A DNA stretch of 23,933 nucleotides from a virus. Location: IMG/VR virus record IMGVR_UViG_3300008114_000321, positions 1 to 23,933 of that record; one strand, written 5' to 3'. A model generated the notes under the pieces. It had not been told where the DNA came from. It searched no databases and saw only the letters and a list, made by a program, of their open reading frames with translations. Positions 1,986-18,357 of the stretch are shown piece after piece. The stretch's first letter is position 1. Each line of letters opens with the position of its first letter. A program made the position numbers and the translations under genes.

Positions 1986-3134
1986 ATGAACATTCAGAAA
2001 GTCAAACTATCCGATATAAAGAGCAATCCAAACAATCCAAGGATTATAAAGGATGACAAATTCAAAAAGTTGGTTAAGTCTATTCAGGAGTTTCCAAAGA
2101 TGCTTGAGATCAGGCCTATAGTAGTGAATCAGGACATGATAGTACTAGGAGGGAATATGAGATTGAAGGCATCAAAGGAGGCAGGGCTTAAAGAAGTATT
2201 TATTGTGAAGGCTGATGATCTTACAGAAGATGAGCAGAAGCAGTTTATCATAAAGGATAATGTAGGATTCGGTGAATGGGATTGGGAGATGCTTGCCAAC
2301 GAGTGGGATGCGGAAGAACTTAAAGAATGGGGATTGGATGTACCTGAATTTGCTATCAATGAATTAGAAGCAGAGGAGGATGACTATGAAATGCCTGATG
2401 AAGTTCAGACAGACATAGTGCTAGGTGACCTTTTTGAAATAGGTGAACACCGTTTGCTTTGTGGAGATAGTACAGATAGTGACCAAGTGGCTAAGTTGAT
2501 GAATGGGGAGAAGGCTGATATGGTATTCACTGATCCTCCTTATGGTGTTTCATATCAATCTAATATGAGGACAAAAACAGAAAAATTTGAAATTTTAGAA
2601 AATGATAATGTATTCATTACTGAATGGATAAATAACCTCCCTTTATTTTCACAGGGATTTGTTTTTGTTTGGACATCATGGAAAGTTTTAAAACAATGGA
2701 TTGAATTTTGTGAACCTATTGGTGAGTTATCAAATTTAATTATTTGGGATAAAGGTGGTGGAGGAATAGGTGATTTAAAAAAAACATTTTTGACAGATTT
2801 TGAAGTTGCACTTTGTTATAATAGGGGAGCAGAAATAAAAGGAAAAAGATTGGGTAGCGTTTGGAGTGTTAATAAAGATGCGAGTTCTAAATATCTACAC
2901 CCAACACAAAAGCCTATTGAACTTGCTGCAATGGCAATAGAAAATGTTTCCTTAAAAAGTAATTTAATTTTAGATTTATTCCTAGGTTCAGGTAGCACTA
3001 TGGTAGCAGCACATCAACTGAAAAGGAAGTGCTATGGAATGGAACTTGACCCTAAGTACTGCCAAGTTATTGTTGACAGGATGAAGAAACTAGATCCTAG
3101 CCTAGTCATCAAGAGAAACGGAATACAGATATAA
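1986..3134 (+). CDS. ParB-like / DNA N6-adenine methyltransferase fusion
   Basis: The 382-residue protein has two parts. Residues 1 to about 110 resemble the ParB/Srx-like domain (KLSDIKSNPNNPR near the start, VLGGNMRLKASKEAG in the middle). Residues about 140-375 form a beta-class N6/N4 methyltransferase. DPPY at 183-186 is the catalytic motif, favouring adenine N6 methylation over SPPY-type cytosine N4. DLFLGSGST at 330-338 is the S-adenosylmethionine site. ParB-methyltransferase fusions are common in phages, usually without a partner nuclease, and protect phage DNA from host restriction or mark it for replication or packaging. No restriction gene is seen nearby. Codons from about 2555 to 2985 are far more AT-rich than the ends, covering the likely target-recognition region, so this part may have been exchanged. 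Confidence 0.9.
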   Translation: MNIQKVKLSDIKSNPNNPRIIKDDKFKKLVKSIQEFPKMLEIRPIVVNQDMIVLGGNMRLKASKEAGLKEVFIVKADDLTEDEQKQFIIKDNVGFGEWDWEMLANEWDAEELKEWGLDVPEFAINELEAEEDDYEMPDEVQTDIVLGDLFEIGEHRLLCGDSTDSDQVAKLMNGEKADMVFTDPPYGVSYQSNMRTKTEKFEILENDNVFITEWINNLPLFSQGFVFVWTSWKVLKQWIEFCEPIGELSNLIIWDKGGGGIGDLKKTFLTDFEVALCYNRGAEIKGKRLGSVWSVNKDASSKYLHPTQKPIELAAMAIENVSLKSNLILDLFLGSGSTMVAAHQLKRKCYGMELDPKYCQVIVDRMKKLDPSLVIKRNGIQI

Positions 3135-3152: not shown

Positions 3153-3491
3153 ATGAAAAAGCCTGATAGATCAATTATAGAGAAAGCCATTGTGAAGGCA
3201 TTTGGCAACCTTTCTACGGCTGCAAAGTCATTGAGTGTAGATAGGGCTACCCTGTACAAATGGATCGAGCAGGAGGGCTTAGAAGAGGCTGTACAGGAGG
3301 GTAGGAATACTAGGCTTGATTTTGTGGAAAGCAAACTAGATCAGAAGATCAATGGAGGAGATACTACGGCTATCATTTTCTTCCTGAAGACTCAGGGAAA
3401 GAATAGAGGCTATGTAGAAAGACAGGAGATCACAGGCAAGGATGGCCAAAAGATTTTTGAGGTCAGCATCATAGATGGCGAACAGGATTAA
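3153..3491 (+). CDS. Terminase small subunit
   Basis: The 112-residue protein starts with a helix-turn-helix (SIIEKAIVKAFGNLSTAAKSLSVDRATLYKWIEQEG) like that of many phage small terminases. A helical middle that probably oligomerises follows (LDFVESKLDQKINGGDTTAIIFFLKTQ) and then GKNRGYVERQEITGKDG. The 'ITG' ending near the C-terminus is typical. The small subunit recognises the packaging site and regulates the large subunit. Its 3' end overlaps the large-terminase gene by 17 bases, and that position confirms the role. Confidence 0.88.
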   Translation: MKKPDRSIIEKAIVKAFGNLSTAAKSLSVDRATLYKWIEQEGLEEAVQEGRNTRLDFVESKLDQKINGGDTTAIIFFLKTQGKNRGYVERQEITGKDGQKIFEVSIIDGEQD

Positions 3492-4632
3492 GACAAACAA
3501 GGTATTCAGACACCTTGAAGAAAGCACATCAAAGATAGTAGTACAGCAGGGAGGCACTCGATCAGGGAAGACCTATAACATCCTGCTTTGGATTATTTTT
3601 TCATATTGCGAAAAGAACACAGGGAAGATAGTCACCATCTGTAGGAAGACATTCCCTGCACTAAGGGGTACTGTCATGCGTGACTTCTTCCAAATCATCA
3701 AGGATCATGAAATCTATTCAGAAGACTTTCACAGCAAAAGCAATAACGAATATTTGCTTAATGGCAATGTTGTAGAATTCATATCACTAGATATGCCTCA
3801 GAAGATCAGGGGCAGAAAGAGAGATTTGCTTTTTGCAAATGAAGTCAATGAACTGACCTTTGAAGATTGGCAGCAGTTGCTTTTCAGAACCAATGAAAAG
3901 ATAATTACAGACTACAATCCTTCAGAAGAATTTCATTGGATTTATGATCAGGTGCTGACTAGATCAGATGTAGAATTCTACCAAACCACCTACAAGGATA
4001 ACCCATTCCTGGGGGATGTCATCAAGCAGGAGATCGAAAGGCTGAAGGAGATAGATGAGAACTATTGGAGGGTCTACGGACTAGGGGAAAGGGGTCAAAG
4101 CAGGTCATTGGTGTACACCTTCCAAACTTGCAAGCAGATACCAAAGGAAGCAAAGCTAGTCAGCTATGGCCTTGACTTCGGATTCTCCAATGATCCTAGT
4201 TCACTAGTGAGAACCTACCTGCTAGGGGATGATATGTATGCAGAAGAACTGCTGTATAGAACAGGCATGACAAATCAGGACATAGCCAATGAATTCAAGG
4301 TGCTAGGATTGGACAGGTCTACAGAAATCTTTGCAGATTCAGCAGAGCCTAAAAGCATAGAAGAAATCTATAGGATGGGGTGGAATGTCAAGCCTACTAT
4401 CAAGGGGTCAATCAACCTAGGGATAGACATCATCAGAAGATACAGGCTTCATGCTACGGAAGGAAGTTTCAACATGATCAAGGAACTGAGAAACTACAAA
4501 TTCATAGAAGATAAAAATGGGCAGATAACCAATAAGCCTGTAGACAATTTTAATCATGCCCTAGATGCACTCAGGTATTCGGTGGTGAATAAGATCACGA
4601 ACAGCCACCTAGGGAAGTACTCCTTCAGGTAG
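3475..4632 (+). CDS. Terminase large subunit (packaging ATPase-nuclease)
   Basis: The 385-residue protein carries both terminase domains. In the ATPase, Walker A is GGTRSGKT at 26-33, and Walker B with the catalytic Glu is DLLFANE at 117-123. The RNase H-like nuclease has acidic residues at D234 (YGLDFGFSND), D288 (FADSAEP) and D364 (HALDALRYS). These match the family in order and spacing. It cuts concatemeric DNA and pumps it through the portal into the prohead. The length is normal for the compact PBSX-like group. The start overlaps the small subunit gene, and a repeat-bearing gap follows the stop. Confidence 0.95.
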   Translation: MANRIKTNKVFRHLEESTSKIVVQQGGTRSGKTYNILLWIIFSYCEKNTGKIVTICRKTFPALRGTVMRDFFQIIKDHEIYSEDFHSKSNNEYLLNGNVVEFISLDMPQKIRGRKRDLLFANEVNELTFEDWQQLLFRTNEKIITDYNPSEEFHWIYDQVLTRSDVEFYQTTYKDNPFLGDVIKQEIERLKEIDENYWRVYGLGERGQSRSLVYTFQTCKQIPKEAKLVSYGLDFGFSNDPSSLVRTYLLGDDMYAEELLYRTGMTNQDIANEFKVLGLDRSTEIFADSAEPKSIEEIYRMGWNVKPTIKGSINLGIDIIRRYRLHATEGSFNMIKELRNYKFIEDKNGQITNKPVDNFNHALDALRYSVVNKITNSHLGKYSFR

Positions 4633-4644
4633 TATCCACATTTG

Positions 4645-4686
4645 AACTATCCATGTTTAGACATTAACTATCCATGTTTAGACATT
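4645..4686 (+). repeat. Tandem direct repeat, two perfect 21-bp units
   Basis: Two identical adjacent 21-base units occupy 4645-4665 and 4666-4686 (core CTATCCATGTTTAGACATT). Part of the unit (TTAGACATT) recurs at 4689-4697, and a degenerate copy (GTATCCACATTTG) lies just upstream at 4632-4644. The array sits in the 121-base gap between the large terminase and the tail operon, where it could be an operator, a replication iteron or part of a packaging signal. The sequence alone does not choose between these. Confidence 0.8.
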
Positions 4687-4753: not shown

Positions 4754-5362
4754 ATGTGGGATAAATTAACTGTCGGACAATTCATAAGCCTCTATGACAT
4801 TGAGATCAACACGAATCTGAATATCATTGAGAAGCAGCAGAAGATGCTTTCCATAGTGGAGGGCAAGCCTGAAAGCTACTATGACACATTCAAGTACAGG
4901 GACTTGATCAGCGAATATGGGGAGAAGCTATCTTTCTTTGATAACATCCCTGAGACTAAGCCTGTGGACTTCCTGAAGATAGGGGATAAGCGGTACAAGT
5001 TCTGCTATGAATTACACGAAATCACAGCAGGGCAGTACATTGATATTCTAGCCTTCTCCGGAGAGATCATGCAACTCAATAAGATAGCTGCCTGTTTCTT
5101 TCTACCTATGGAGGGGAAGAGATATCAGCCCTATGGGAAGATTCCTCATGATGTGGTGGCAGATGAATTACTGGATGCAAAGTTCATAGAGGTGTATGGA
5201 TGTATGCTTTTTTTTTGTCAATTATTCAGCGAATTAATAAGCAATACTATAATCTCTTCAATGATCAATCAGGAACTAGCGAAGAAGGTAGTGGATTCAT
5301 GGGAAGGTGGGGGTGGGTATTCAGCACTAAGCAGGTGGCAGACTTCCAAAATATTAGCGTGA
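4754..5362 (+). CDS. Tail assembly chaperone, short (unshifted) form, 202 aa
   Basis: This frame starts MWDKLTVGQFISLYDIE, an opening seen in tail assembly chaperones of Bacteroidetes phages. It stays in frame through a run of nine T at 5208-5216 and ends 48 codons later. Residues 1-154 look like the conserved domain. Residues 155-202 are low in recognisable features. The companion product reads the same first 154 residues and then shifts to the -1 frame (see the entry ending at 5481). This gene pair has the same logic as lambda G and G-T, which coat the tape measure before tube assembly. The position at the head of the tail operon fits. The unshifted form is inferred to be the more abundant one if shifting is programmed. 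Confidence 0.7.
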   Translation: MWDKLTVGQFISLYDIEINTNLNIIEKQQKMLSIVEGKPESYYDTFKYRDLISEYGEKLSFFDNIPETKPVDFLKIGDKRYKFCYELHEITAGQYIDILAFSGEIMQLNKIAACFFLPMEGKRYQPYGKIPHDVVADELLDAKFIEVYGCMLFFCQLFSELISNTIISSMINQELAKKVVDSWEGGGGYSALSRWQTSKILA

Positions 5363-5481
5363 ATGAGGCCTTTGAATTGAAGGTGGTAGAATACCTGAAC
5401 TGCCTAGCATACTTGAAAGATTATAACAAACACAAAGAACTAGAATATAAAAAATGGTCGTTGCAAGCCAAGCTAAAGTAG
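4754..5481 (+). CDS. Tail assembly chaperone, -1 frameshifted long form, about 242 aa
   Basis: Joining 4754-5215 to the -1 frame from 5215 gives 154 + 88 residues. The -1 part holds a strong family signal: FMGRWGWVFSTKQVADFQ followed by NEAFELKVVEYLNCLAYLKD. The Trp-Gly-Trp block and closing helix recur in the C-terminus of Bacteroidetes phage chaperones. This means the conserved C-terminus is not in the frame of the conserved N-terminus. The shift site is U-UUU-UUU in the upstream frame (5209-5215), an ideal XXXYYYZ slippery heptamer. Polymerase slippage on T9, or a miscounted homopolymer (T10 would make one continuous gene), are the alternatives. The last codons overlap the next gene by 28 bases. 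Confidence 0.7.
5208..5216 (+). promoter_or_regulatory. Slippery T9 tract for -1 frameshifting
   Basis: Nine consecutive T residues lie where the conserved chaperone sequence passes from one frame to the -1 frame. In the upstream frame the codons read CTT TTT TTT TGT, so both P- and A-site tRNAs for Phe can re-pair after moving back one base. I could not identify a clear downstream stem or pseudoknot. The sequence after the tract is AT-rich. Confidence 0.65.
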
Positions 5482-6113
5482 ATGGACTGATTAATGTCGG
5501 AGGCTATACACTCAAAGGGAATGAGTTAGTAGTCAGGGCTGAAGAGATACTTCTTCAGAACCTTGAATCTGCTTTGCAAAGGCTAGGTGCTAGACTTGCT
5601 GACAATCTTGAGATGAATGCACCAATGGGTGCTACAGGTAAATTGAAATCTACATTTGGTCAGCCTGTTATCAGAGAAACCAAAACAGGATATAGCATTG
5701 AGATCAAAACTGATGCAGAATACTTTGACTATATTGATAAGGGTGTCAGGGGTATTGAGCATGACATCAAAAACAAGAAAGTCTACCTGAATAAAGACAA
5801 TCAATACTACCAATTCAGGAAGTATGGGATGCCTTTGAAAGCCTTGCAGGAATTAGAAGGATGGATGCAGAGAAAGAACATTGAAATAGAAGCAAGGAAT
5901 CTCAGAATAAAATCAGGAGATGAAACCCTGAAGGGAAGAAGAATGCTTCCACAGATTTCTAGTTCAGCCCAAAGGATGGCATACTACATCAAGAAGTATG
6001 GTATAGCAGGGACTAACTTCATCCAAAAATCAATAGATCAATCCAAGCCTGATTTTGAAATAGACATTAAGACAATCGGGGCAGATAGCCTTGTACTAAA
6101 AGTAAGAAAATGA
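5454..6113 (+). CDS. HK97 gp10-like tail completion / head-tail joining protein
   Basis: The 219-residue protein begins with a helical part (VRAEEILLQNLESALQRLGARLADNLEMNAP). The family's hallmark follows: residues that would form strands around TGKLKSTFGQPVIRETKTGYSI and the motif YFDYIDKGVRG. The gp10 family acts at the neck, stopping or joining the tail tube. This version is longer than the typical 130-150 residues, with an extra segment at about 120-190 (QRKNIEIEARNLRIKSGDE). The C-terminus (IDIKTIGADSLVLKVRK) is another strand. It overlaps the long chaperone form by 28 bases and shares ATGA with the next gene. Confidence 0.7.
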   Translation: MVVASQAKVDGLINVGGYTLKGNELVVRAEEILLQNLESALQRLGARLADNLEMNAPMGATGKLKSTFGQPVIRETKTGYSIEIKTDAEYFDYIDKGVRGIEHDIKNKKVYLNKDNQYYQFRKYGMPLKALQELEGWMQRKNIEIEARNLRIKSGDETLKGRRMLPQISSSAQRMAYYIKKYGIAGTNFIQKSIDQSKPDFEIDIKTIGADSLVLKVRK

Positions 6114-12920: not shown

Positions 12921-15104
12921 ATGGCTGAAGAAAATAAGATAATCCTAGATGCTGATGTCAAACCCTTAAAGAAGCAACTAAGGGAAGCGACTCAAGAACT
13001 CCAAGTAGCAAGGCAGAGATTCGGTGAATTCTCCACAGAGGCTGTCAATGCTGCACAGAAGGTAGCTTTGATCAGGGATGAGATTGAGGATGCCAATGAA
13101 TCGGCACAGCTATTTGATCCAGGGAAGAGATTTCAGGCATTGACTACGGCAGCCTCCACAGCAGCAGGGGGAATAGCAGCAGTTCAGGGGGCTATGGCCT
13201 TATTCGGTGGGGAATCACAGGAAGTAGAAAAGGCACTCCTGAAAGTTCAGTCAGCCATGGCACTTTCTCAGGGGCTTTCCCAACTCAAAGACATCAGCAA
13301 AGTAGGGGCTCAGTTAAAGACCACCTTCATAGGATTGACCACAGGTGTCAACGGATTCAAGAAGGCTTTAATTGCTACAGGAATCGGTGCTTTGGTGGTA
13401 GCTGTGGGGCTATTGGTGACCTATTGGGAAGACATCTTAGGTCTAGTGAATGGTGTAGGCAGTGAACAAAAGAAACTCAATGAAGCCACCCAAAAAGACC
13501 TAGAAGCAAACAAGGAAAAACTTGATGCCATAGATGGTCAGGCGAATCAATTAAAACTTCAAGGAAAGTCTGAAGAAGAAATCCTGAAGATGAAGATAGC
13601 CCAAACAGATGAGGCTATTAAGGCAGCAGAGATCAACCTACAGAATGCTGAAGCTACCAAGCAGGCACAGGTAGAAGCATCAATGCGGAACAAAGCTATC
13701 CTTCAGGGATTGATTGCAATGGTGACAGCACCAATCACAGCAGTCCTAGCAGGTATTGATTTGATAGGTAAGGCAGTAGGGCAGAATTTCAATCTTGCAG
13801 AAGGCTTCACAGGTGGAATAGCTGAAATGGTATTTGATCCTGAAGCAGTAGCAGAAGAAGGTGATAAGACTATCAAGGAAGCACAAGCCCAACTCAATCA
13901 ACTAAAGGAAAAAAGGGCAGGATTTGAATTGTCTGTTTTGGATGGTCAGAAAGCAGCAGGTGAAAAGGCAGCAGCAGAAAGGGAAAAGCAGAACCAAAAG
14001 GAGCAGGAAGCACTAGCCATCTTGAATGATGCTAGAACAAAGATGCTAGACAAACAGAAGCAAGAAGAAGAGGCAGTAGAAAAGGCCTATTCTGAGAAGT
14101 TCCTAAAGTTGAAAGAGGCAGGGATTGAAGATGATGGCATCCTAGAAGCATCCAAGCAGAAGGAACTCCAAGACATCAAAGATAAATATCAGAAGGAAGA
14201 GGCAGACAAAGAAGAGGCATTTCAAAAACAGCTAAATGAGATCAGAACACAGGTCAGATTAGAAGGCATCAAGGATGAAAATGAGAAAGCTAGGGAGCAG
14301 ATTTTGCTAGAATATGAAAAGCAAAGATTAGAGATATTTGAGAATGAAAAACTGACAGCAGAGCAGAAGACAGCCCTAGCCCTAGAACTAGCAACACAGG
14401 AACAGCAGGCACTAGCAGCACTTCAGTTGACTATTGATCAGCAGGCAGCAGCAGAAGACCTAGCAGAACTTGAAAGGGAGATGGCACAGGCTGACCTATC
14501 CTTCCAAATTCAAAGGAATCTTCTTGATCAGAAAGAAGCACTTTTGACTGAGCAGCTAGAAGCAGGACTTATCACAGAAAAAGCCTACACAGAAGCCATC
14601 AGGGAGAATGTAGATGCAAGGATAGAACTCGATAAGAAAAAGCTAGAAAATGCTGCTAGGGTTTCAGGACTTCTTGCAGGTGTGGCTGATTTGGTGGGTA
14701 AGAATACAGCAGCGGGAAAGGCTACGGCAATAGCTGCTACTACTATTGACACCTATCTAGGGGCACAGAAAGCCTATACTTCACAGCTAATTCCAGGTGA
14801 TCCATCTTCACCTATCAGGGCTGCACTTGCTGCTGCCTTGGCTGTGGCAGGTGGTATAAAGAATGTTAGGGCTATTGCAAAGACACAAGTCCCAGGTGGG
14901 AAAGGTGGAGGAGCATCTGCCCCTGATGTATCTGCATCAGCACCACAGACTGCTTCAGCAGTTCCTACTGTTGGGAATAGTCCTGTGACAGCACTAGGTC
15001 AGGTGATGAATAATCAGCCACCACTCAGAGCCTATGTAGTGGAAAGCGAAGTGACAGGAACTCAGAAGCGTGTGGCAGATATTGAACGCAGGGCAGGATT
15101 TTAA
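12921..15104 (+). CDS. Tape measure protein
   Basis: The 727-residue protein has a helical N-terminus (LDADVKPLKKQLREATQELQ and similar heptads). Two hydrophobic stretches follow at about 149-175 (ALIATGIGALVVAVGLLVTYWEDILG) and about 255-285 (AILQGLIAMVTAPITAVLAGID). A long Gln/Glu/Lys/Ala-rich coiled-coil region spans about 340-600. The C-terminus has a conserved-looking AGKATAIAATTIDTYLGAQKAY and a Gly/Ala/Pro end. This layout is that of tape measure proteins, which set tail length and are ejected with DNA. By the usual rule of about 0.15 nm per residue, it suggests a tail near 110 nm. It lies after the fibre rather than next to the chaperone, an unusual order. Confidence 0.85.
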   Translation: MAEENKIILDADVKPLKKQLREATQELQVARQRFGEFSTEAVNAAQKVALIRDEIEDANESAQLFDPGKRFQALTTAASTAAGGIAAVQGAMALFGGESQEVEKALLKVQSAMALSQGLSQLKDISKVGAQLKTTFIGLTTGVNGFKKALIATGIGALVVAVGLLVTYWEDILGLVNGVGSEQKKLNEATQKDLEANKEKLDAIDGQANQLKLQGKSEEEILKMKIAQTDEAIKAAEINLQNAEATKQAQVEASMRNKAILQGLIAMVTAPITAVLAGIDLIGKAVGQNFNLAEGFTGGIAEMVFDPEAVAEEGDKTIKEAQAQLNQLKEKRAGFELSVLDGQKAAGEKAAAEREKQNQKEQEALAILNDARTKMLDKQKQEEEAVEKAYSEKFLKLKEAGIEDDGILEASKQKELQDIKDKYQKEEADKEEAFQKQLNEIRTQVRLEGIKDENEKAREQILLEYEKQRLEIFENEKLTAEQKTALALELATQEQQALAALQLTIDQQAAAEDLAELEREMAQADLSFQIQRNLLDQKEALLTEQLEAGLITEKAYTEAIRENVDARIELDKKKLENAARVSGLLAGVADLVGKNTAAGKATAIAATTIDTYLGAQKAYTSQLIPGDPSSPIRAALAAALAVAGGIKNVRAIAKTQVPGGKGGGASAPDVSASAPQTASAVPTVGNSPVTALGQVMNNQPPLRAYVVESEVTGTQKRVADIERRAGF

Positions 15105-17795: not shown

Positions 17796-18302
17796 ATGCC
17801 TTGTGCCTTAACTCAATCATACACATTAGACTGCAAAGATTCAATCGGTGGTCTTAAAGAAGTATGGTTTGCAGCGGTAGAAGATGTGGCTTCTTGGACA
17901 GGTGCTAGCGGTACATATACTGCTGTCACTATGGATGCAGGCAAATACTTTTGGAAGTACGAACTAGTTAAAGAAAGTTCAAACTTCGCAGAGGCTGTCA
18001 ACACCAATGTTCAAAATGGCACTGTGTTCTACGCTCAGACCTTAGAAATCATTCTAAACAAATTGCAAGTAAATACCCGAAATGAGATTCTTCTCTTGGC
18101 TAAGAATAGACTAGTAGCCCTAGTGAAAGATAACAATGACAAAATTTGGGTTCTAGGATTTGCAAATGGTTTGGACATCACAGGCGGTGGTTCTGCTACA
18201 GGTACTGCCTTCGGTGATCGTAATGGCTACACATTGACCTTCACAGGCAATGAGAAAGAACTAGCAGCATTGTTCACAGGAACTCCTCCTGTATCTGCTT
18301 AA
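17796..18302 (+). CDS. Tail-tube-like / virion structural protein, 168 aa
   Basis: The opening CALTQSYTLDCKDSIGGLKEVWF is a strong family mark in Bacteroidetes siphophages, where such proteins are structural and often called major tail protein. The rest is beta-rich with a helix (LEIILNKLQVNTRNEILLLAKNR) and WVLGFANGLDIT. The C-terminus has a Gly/Thr-rich strand pair. The region lacks another tube candidate, so major tail tube is the best call. A head decoration protein is the main alternative given its place next to the capsid gene. The codons are of the high-expression type seen in the capsid gene. Confidence 0.6.
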   Translation: MPCALTQSYTLDCKDSIGGLKEVWFAAVEDVASWTGASGTYTAVTMDAGKYFWKYELVKESSNFAEAVNTNVQNGTVFYAQTLEIILNKLQVNTRNEILLLAKNRLVALVKDNNDKIWVLGFANGLDITGGGSATGTAFGDRNGYTLTFTGNEKELAALFTGTPPVSA

Positions 18303-18325
18303 TATTTGGTTTGTTGTTTATGTGA

Positions 18326-18357
18326 AAAGCACCTTCTTTATGGAGGTGTTTTTTTTT
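18326..18357 (+). terminator. Intrinsic terminator with T9 tail
   Basis: CACCTTC (18330-18336) pairs with GGAGGTG (18342-18348), with one G-U pair, around a TTTAT loop. Nine T residues follow (18349-18357). This is the best intrinsic terminator in the window. It lies after the tail-tube-like gene and separates the abundant structural genes from the portal and neck genes. Confidence 0.85.

Follow-up and report, generated by a model that had tools for sequence, protein, structure and literature searches.

In a stretch of viral DNA of 23,933 nucleotides (IMG/VR record IMGVR_UViG_3300008114_000321, positions 1 to 23,933; hereafter the window), the gene that directly follows the terminase large subunit gene (TerL) nearly certainly undergoes a programmed -1 frameshift at a run of nine T (T9), as judged from comparison of its relatives. 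Two proteins with a common N-terminus of 154 residues would be made: a 202-aa protein in the 0-frame and, by a -1 shift at U9 in some fraction of cases, a 242-aa protein. Taken as a whole, the best explanation is probably a programmed shift that yields a G / G-T type pair, the tail assembly chaperones of a Bacteroidota siphophage; we infer this host phylum from the relatives. In such a pair, one would expect the short form to coat the tape measure protein, and the long form, presumed to be rare, to recruit the protein of the tail tube.

Layout and conservation of the slip site

The gene comprises the following features:

4754-5481, + strand: dual-product gene with the T9 run and two reading frames
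4754-5362, + strand: 0-frame ORF, 202 aa
4754-5215, + strand: N-terminal part ('G' domain) shared by both products, 154 codons, coding in the 0-frame only
5208-5216, + strand: slippage site, the T9 run, flanked by C and G
5209-5215, + strand: in-phase heptamer U_UUU_UUU, within codons CTT TTT TTT TGT
5216-5362, + strand: 0-frame C-terminal tail of the unshifted product, 48 codons and a stop
5215-5481, + strand: -1 frame C-terminal 'T' domain, 88 codons and a stop, accessible only through the shift

Across the site the codons read TGT ATG CTT TTT TTT TGT CAA, which agrees with the first-pass annotation that N- and C-terminal halves in frames related by -1 meet at nine T and that the upstream frame reads U-UUU-UUU there. 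The -1 frame stays open as far as 5481 and contains GRWGW...CLAYLKD, and a slip would give the predicted 242-aa fusion ..CMLFF-LSIIQRINKQYYN.. As a correction, the 0-frame does not stop close to the slip: it continues for 48 more codons, and this stretch is itself under selection.

Relatives of the fusion were searched in IMG/VR with peptide patterns that left the T run out. This search matched 142 relatives, and the 80 that were listed all carried T9 at the same codon (80/80). Further loci obtained by an alignment search and by a search with divergent TerL brought the set to 211 loci with 119 distinct gene sequences, the most divergent at ~57% identity (IMG/VR and genome loci are partly redundant). 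An exact T9 at the same codon was present in all 211 fetched IMG/VR loci, with variable flanks, C, G or A before the run and GT, AT or GC after it. The 108 unique full-length fusions were all 242 aa long and aligned without gaps. Ten T or a continuous frame occurred in no member of the window clade. The run is also almost exclusive to the site: on the gene strand of 50 diverse loci (308 kb) we counted 51 T9, 50 of them at the slip site (one per locus), no T8 and eight T7. Within the clade, the 0-frame tail ends after 5 codons in one relative (L018). Another (L053, 1529-2261, on a 4968-bp contig) is the sole close relative with an 8-nt surplus and a disturbed C-domain frame, probably a local assembly fault.

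Selection on the two reading frames

To read selection we reconstructed changes by parsimony on a tree of 108 related sequences, so that the counts are descriptive and involve no formal tests. Synonymous change was close to expectation (~1.0) in codons 1-150 and past 190, fell to 0.06 of expectation in codons 151-160 and was 0.57 and 0.52 of expectation in codons 161-170 and 181-190, respectively. The T positions of the run showed zero changes on the tree. Conserved Phe codons had no third-base changes at the site and mostly several to nineteen elsewhere in the gene, and the two further Phe-Phe pairs are nearly always written TTC-TTY. Chance is excluded by the near-exclusivity of T9 to the site, its presence in all 211 loci and this local synonymous constraint.

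The reconstructed changes were then sorted by their effect in each frame. In codons 1-150, changes synonymous in the 0-frame occurred at a rate of ~5.9 vs 0.4-1.0 for the others. Past the run, constraint was seen in both frames, stronger in the 0-frame at 5216-5248 and moderate at 5249-5320, a dual-frame stretch of ~35 codons (5216-5320). Beyond ~5321 only -1 coding is visible, though the 0-frame mostly remains open, and in the -1 frame domain the rate was 5.3 for -1-synonymous changes vs ~1.1-1.25 for non-synonymous ones. Since the gene is coding in the 0-frame before the site, in the -1 frame after it and in both frames between, the substitution pattern shows that selection keeps both proteins, the unshifted one including its tail and the shifted one. 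Altogether, conservation and frame-specific selection lend strong support to the probable -1 frameshift of the first-pass annotation.

An RNA element was considered as the cause of the conservation after the run and dropped, because the substitution classes fit dual coding. No stable or conserved downstream RNA structure was detected: alifold found nothing, and few stretches of the gene are less structured than the 50 nt that follow the site (rank 63 of 67), in line with the earlier remark that no clear structure is seen. A small hairpin just past the run (UUC-NNN-GAA) was rejected, as it folds like shuffled sequences, is broken in relatives and has no alifold support. No downstream structure was found in the other clades of the family either. 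Downstream RNA structure is not obligatory for programmed -1 shifts in phages, and the slip would work without it. The second T9 of the window was rejected as another shift site, because its position as the tail of a hairpin marks an intrinsic terminator:

18324-18357, after the gene at 17796-18302: intrinsic terminator, hairpin GCACCTTCTTTATGGAGGTG followed by T9 (18349-18357)

The wider family and the machine that slips

Against phages, tblastn returned nothing credible whether the query was the window protein, the consensus of its clade or the Hymenobacter protein described below, and a profile search of genome contigs with the fusion alignment gave no match. A TerL query instead reached Hymenobacter pini (L169), in which the gene right after TerL has a T9 and a 90-aa C-terminal domain in the -1 frame. 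A profile search of the phylum and then of the order found a homologue in 91 of 401 genomes from another order; in nearly all of these 91, the N- and C-terminal parts matched separately. A part of each genome group was sampled, and junction frames were read in the loci fetched. In this wider family, junctions were located by a script that took T runs of at least 7, and a frame scan not limited to T runs found no junction off a T run. A T run marked each of the clear junctions examined, and with a single exception the C-terminus lay in the -1 frame.

In Cytophagales prophages (47-64% GC) the copies carry T9 in the register GAT/GCT TTT TTT TTG, except for one (L225; G328:C1:938637-939410, a single-contig genome) that has T10 and the fusion in one continuous frame, which may be a real switch or a homopolymer error of assembly. 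A relative with the protein in one continuous frame at an unslippery site had been named as evidence against a shift: the window clade holds none with a continuous frame, and the remote L225 has one, yet by way of a T10 that is still slippery.

A Foldseek match (I6R9M9) led to a cultured marine phage, Nonlabens phage P12024S. Its gene 38, after TerL, reads TGC ATA CTT TTT TTT TAT, with the C-domain (..FSLKWSWYHTF..SILYWLAYQSD..) in -1, and the frameshift fusion (L250, 23136-23830) would be 231 aa. The gene 38 regions of P12024S and P12024L (JQ823122, JQ823123) are direct homologues of the window gene: the register of the T9 is shared, and the C-domain again lies in the -1 frame. Both records differ from our reading in that they list hypothetical proteins only and leave the shift unnoted; the deposited P12024S annotation has two hypothetical ORFs and no fusion. 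Profile comparison matched the window/P12024S group to the Cytophagales group (A7-A5; 96%, E 3.6e-9; 80%, E 1.5e-5 with P12024S removed) and the Cytophagales group to a third group (A6-A5; 99.4%, E 1.6e-21), which supports homology of the three groups at the level of sequence profiles. A weak structural relative in Flavobacterium phage 6H (L237, 10352-10927; Foldseek E 8.5e-3) ends in TGT TTT TTC (U_UUU_UUC), and its possible -1 C-domain hits a stop two codons later. Another match (L231, E 0.003) was judged to be due to chance.

On a family tree of 71 members, T9 occurs across all deep branches in three registers: 2 (window, P12024S), 3 (most) and 1 (L307). T10 occurs in two places besides L225. 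T7 and T8 are confined to one derived clade (support 0.89; 29 loci), which reads CAT TTT TTT A/T.., an exact in-phase heptamer, with the first codon always CAT and never CAC. A run of at least about nine A/T regardless of register describes the deep lineages, in three registers, and not the derived T7/T8 clade.

Which machine slips is a close call. We lean slightly towards the ribosome, slipping on the in-phase U_UUU_UUU, and hold this with a confidence no better than even. The argument for it is that the heptamer is present in all shifted junctions listed and is the only element common to the shifted members, and that T7 is enough in one clade, the derived one that retains the exact in-phase heptamer and CAT. 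In E. coli the ribosome slips less readily on U_UUU_UUU than on A_AAA_AAG, and some tailed phages are known to perform G-T shifting at a low level with no stimulator (PMC5009743).

In the rival account, which we place only a little behind, the slip happens during transcription: on T9, RNA polymerase inserts an extra U (or skips two), and ordinary translation of ten-U mRNAs yields the long protein. It draws on the run length itself, at least nine T in three registers: nine or ten T are kept in every deep lineage, in registers 1, 2 and 3, which exceeds the seven that the heptamer needs and counts against the ribosome, and T9 persists in Cytophagales prophages even at 55-64% GC. The missing stimulator and the T10 of L225 with its continuous frame fit it as well. 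Nine A/T is, moreover, the slippage threshold in many bacteria (PMC1088944), and bacterial polymerase favours T runs and insertion (PMC6260861). In register 3 with runs of at least nine, all 32 loci have TTT as the -1 Phe codon beside the site, whereas TTT averages 55% elsewhere in the same genes; this suggests selection for length, though dual coding with a 0-frame Leu gives the same bias. In the genes of window-clade phages, A-runs of 9-10 are depleted (2 seen vs 8.9 expected) and A8 is tolerated (11 vs 15.2), hinting that nine-base runs are costly there. Against polymerase slippage, the derived clade functions with T7/T8, two-frame coding can account for positions T1 and T9 of the run in the window and the Leu/Phe dual coding for the register-3 extras, the T10 of L225 may be an assembly error, and the G-T systems studied so far are ribosomal. 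Invariance of the T8 position, which is doubly synonymous, was discarded as proof of a need for a homopolymer, because a ribosomal preference for Z=U could also explain it.

The two mechanisms may also act at the same run. Ribosomal and transcriptional slippage can share one site (PMC5009743), and in dnaX they replace each other (PMC3711429). The earlier caution that transcriptional slippage on T9 is a serious alternative was right and still stands.

Function of the protein and place of the family

From one gene, a short product and a -1 extended product are thus predicted, and the gene lies in a virion module with TerL, HK97-gp10-like, tail fibre, tape measure, protease, capsid-like and portal genes. 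The neighbours that matter most here are:

3475-4632, + strand: terminase large subunit, directly upstream (phrog_2, E 3.8e-40)
5454-6113, + strand: HK97-gp10-like tail component, whose start overlaps the end of the -1 frame (PF04883, E 1.1e-4, above the gathering score)
12921-15104, + strand: tape measure-like protein, not adjoining the shift gene (phrog_24676, E 1.3e-18)

On this architecture and module we consider a role as tail assembly chaperone probable. Across the family, a helical domain of ~150-195 aa is followed by a -1 extension of ~80-95 aa. AlphaFold modelled the 0-frame product as mostly helical (mean pLDDT 79) and the C-domain alone poorly (pLDDT 52). Family scans of both halves and of the fusion (Pfam, PHROG, NCBIfam) gave no match, nor did the PDB by sequence or by fold. 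Foldseek ranks uncharacterised phage proteins highest, and the first annotated chaperone in the BFVD fold search appears at a weak E 0.67. Known tail chaperones are often too diverged for sequence or fold matches. Their genes usually lie between those of the major tail protein and the tape measure, a position that is not strictly defining; in the window the gene instead directly follows TerL, as it does in Hymenobacter L169, P12024S and L314, and the tape measure gene lies ~7.4 kb downstream, an order also seen in L314. The chaperone assignment of the first-pass annotation therefore holds for the short/-1-extended architecture and the virion module, and fails for the usual gene position and for any profile or solved-fold match.

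These same points, the empty profile and PDB searches and, in several families, a gene that adjoins TerL and is separated from the tape measure gene, would suit a different protein of head or tail assembly that a real shift produces in two lengths. We think this unlikely, as the architecture and the shared virion-gene module are those of G and G-T. Two overlapping genes with their own starts are very improbable: the ATG at 5200 from which the second would start exists in the window, but this codon is CTG, GTG or TTG in most relatives, an NTG there takes any first base as the third base of a Gly/Ser codon, and the C-domain would begin mid-helix. Still less credible is a sequencing or assembly error in the homopolymer, error-prone as such runs are, or a decayed gene, given the equal run length in >100 distinct sequences from many contigs, cultured phages and GC-rich genomes and the selection on both frames.

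A 21-nt tandem direct repeat (AACTATCCATGTTTAGACATT x2, 4645-4686) occupies the sole sizeable gap between TerL and the shift gene. Further upstream, at 1986-3134, a ParB-like N-terminus is fused to a DNA methyltransferase (phrog_498, E 3.5e-91; ParB-like families). The TerL proteins of L118 (2783-3964) and L153-L160 are only ~42% identical to that of the window, and the shift gene of L118 falls within the window clade at ~77-78% identity; by these identities, L118 is a case of mosaic exchange of the terminase beside a conserved chaperone-like gene.

The phage P2 tail chaperone shifts on U_UUU_UUG. It has a U-rich -1 heptamer in common with the window family and belongs to another protein family, and the window family's run extends to nine or ten. 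Lambda gpG / gpG-T and its counterparts in long-tailed phages (PMC5009743) share an N-terminal product with a -1 extension, encoded by one virion-module gene with no obvious stimulator. In contrast to lambda, the window family has no detectable sequence or solved-structure relation to G / G-T, slips on a homopolymer of T7-T10 rather than on G_GGA_AAG, has in the window clade a long dual-coded 0-frame tail, and lies behind TerL instead of ahead of the tape measure gene. Transcriptional slippage in Thermus dnaX, Shigella mxiE and IS elements (PMC1088944, PMC5009743, PMC3711429) resembles the window's site in its run of nine, a dispensable RNA structure and a free register; those genes are cellular, virulence-regulatory or transposase genes, whereas here the gene is of a phage and the polymerase route is a candidate. 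No phage tail chaperone that uses transcriptional slippage was found in the literature searched.

The gene supplies a tail-chaperone-like frameshift family for Bacteroidota phages. Neither Pfam nor PHROG has a model that covers the protein, and annotations split or shorten the gene, for example in cultured P12024S. A practical rule for annotation follows from the family: a T7-T10 run with a -1 extension directly downstream of TerL. With runs of 7, 8, 9 and 10 T and three registers represented among its members, the family is a natural test bed for ribosomal vs transcriptional slippage. A tentative scenario, possible though short of probable, is that of an undescribed, widespread Bacteroidota chaperone family in which ancestral RNA polymerase slippage on nine or ten T sets the product ratio, with one derived clade turned purely ribosomal on U_UUU_UUU. 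If this is true, one gene family would have switched, in the course of its evolution, between transcriptional and translational frameshifting.
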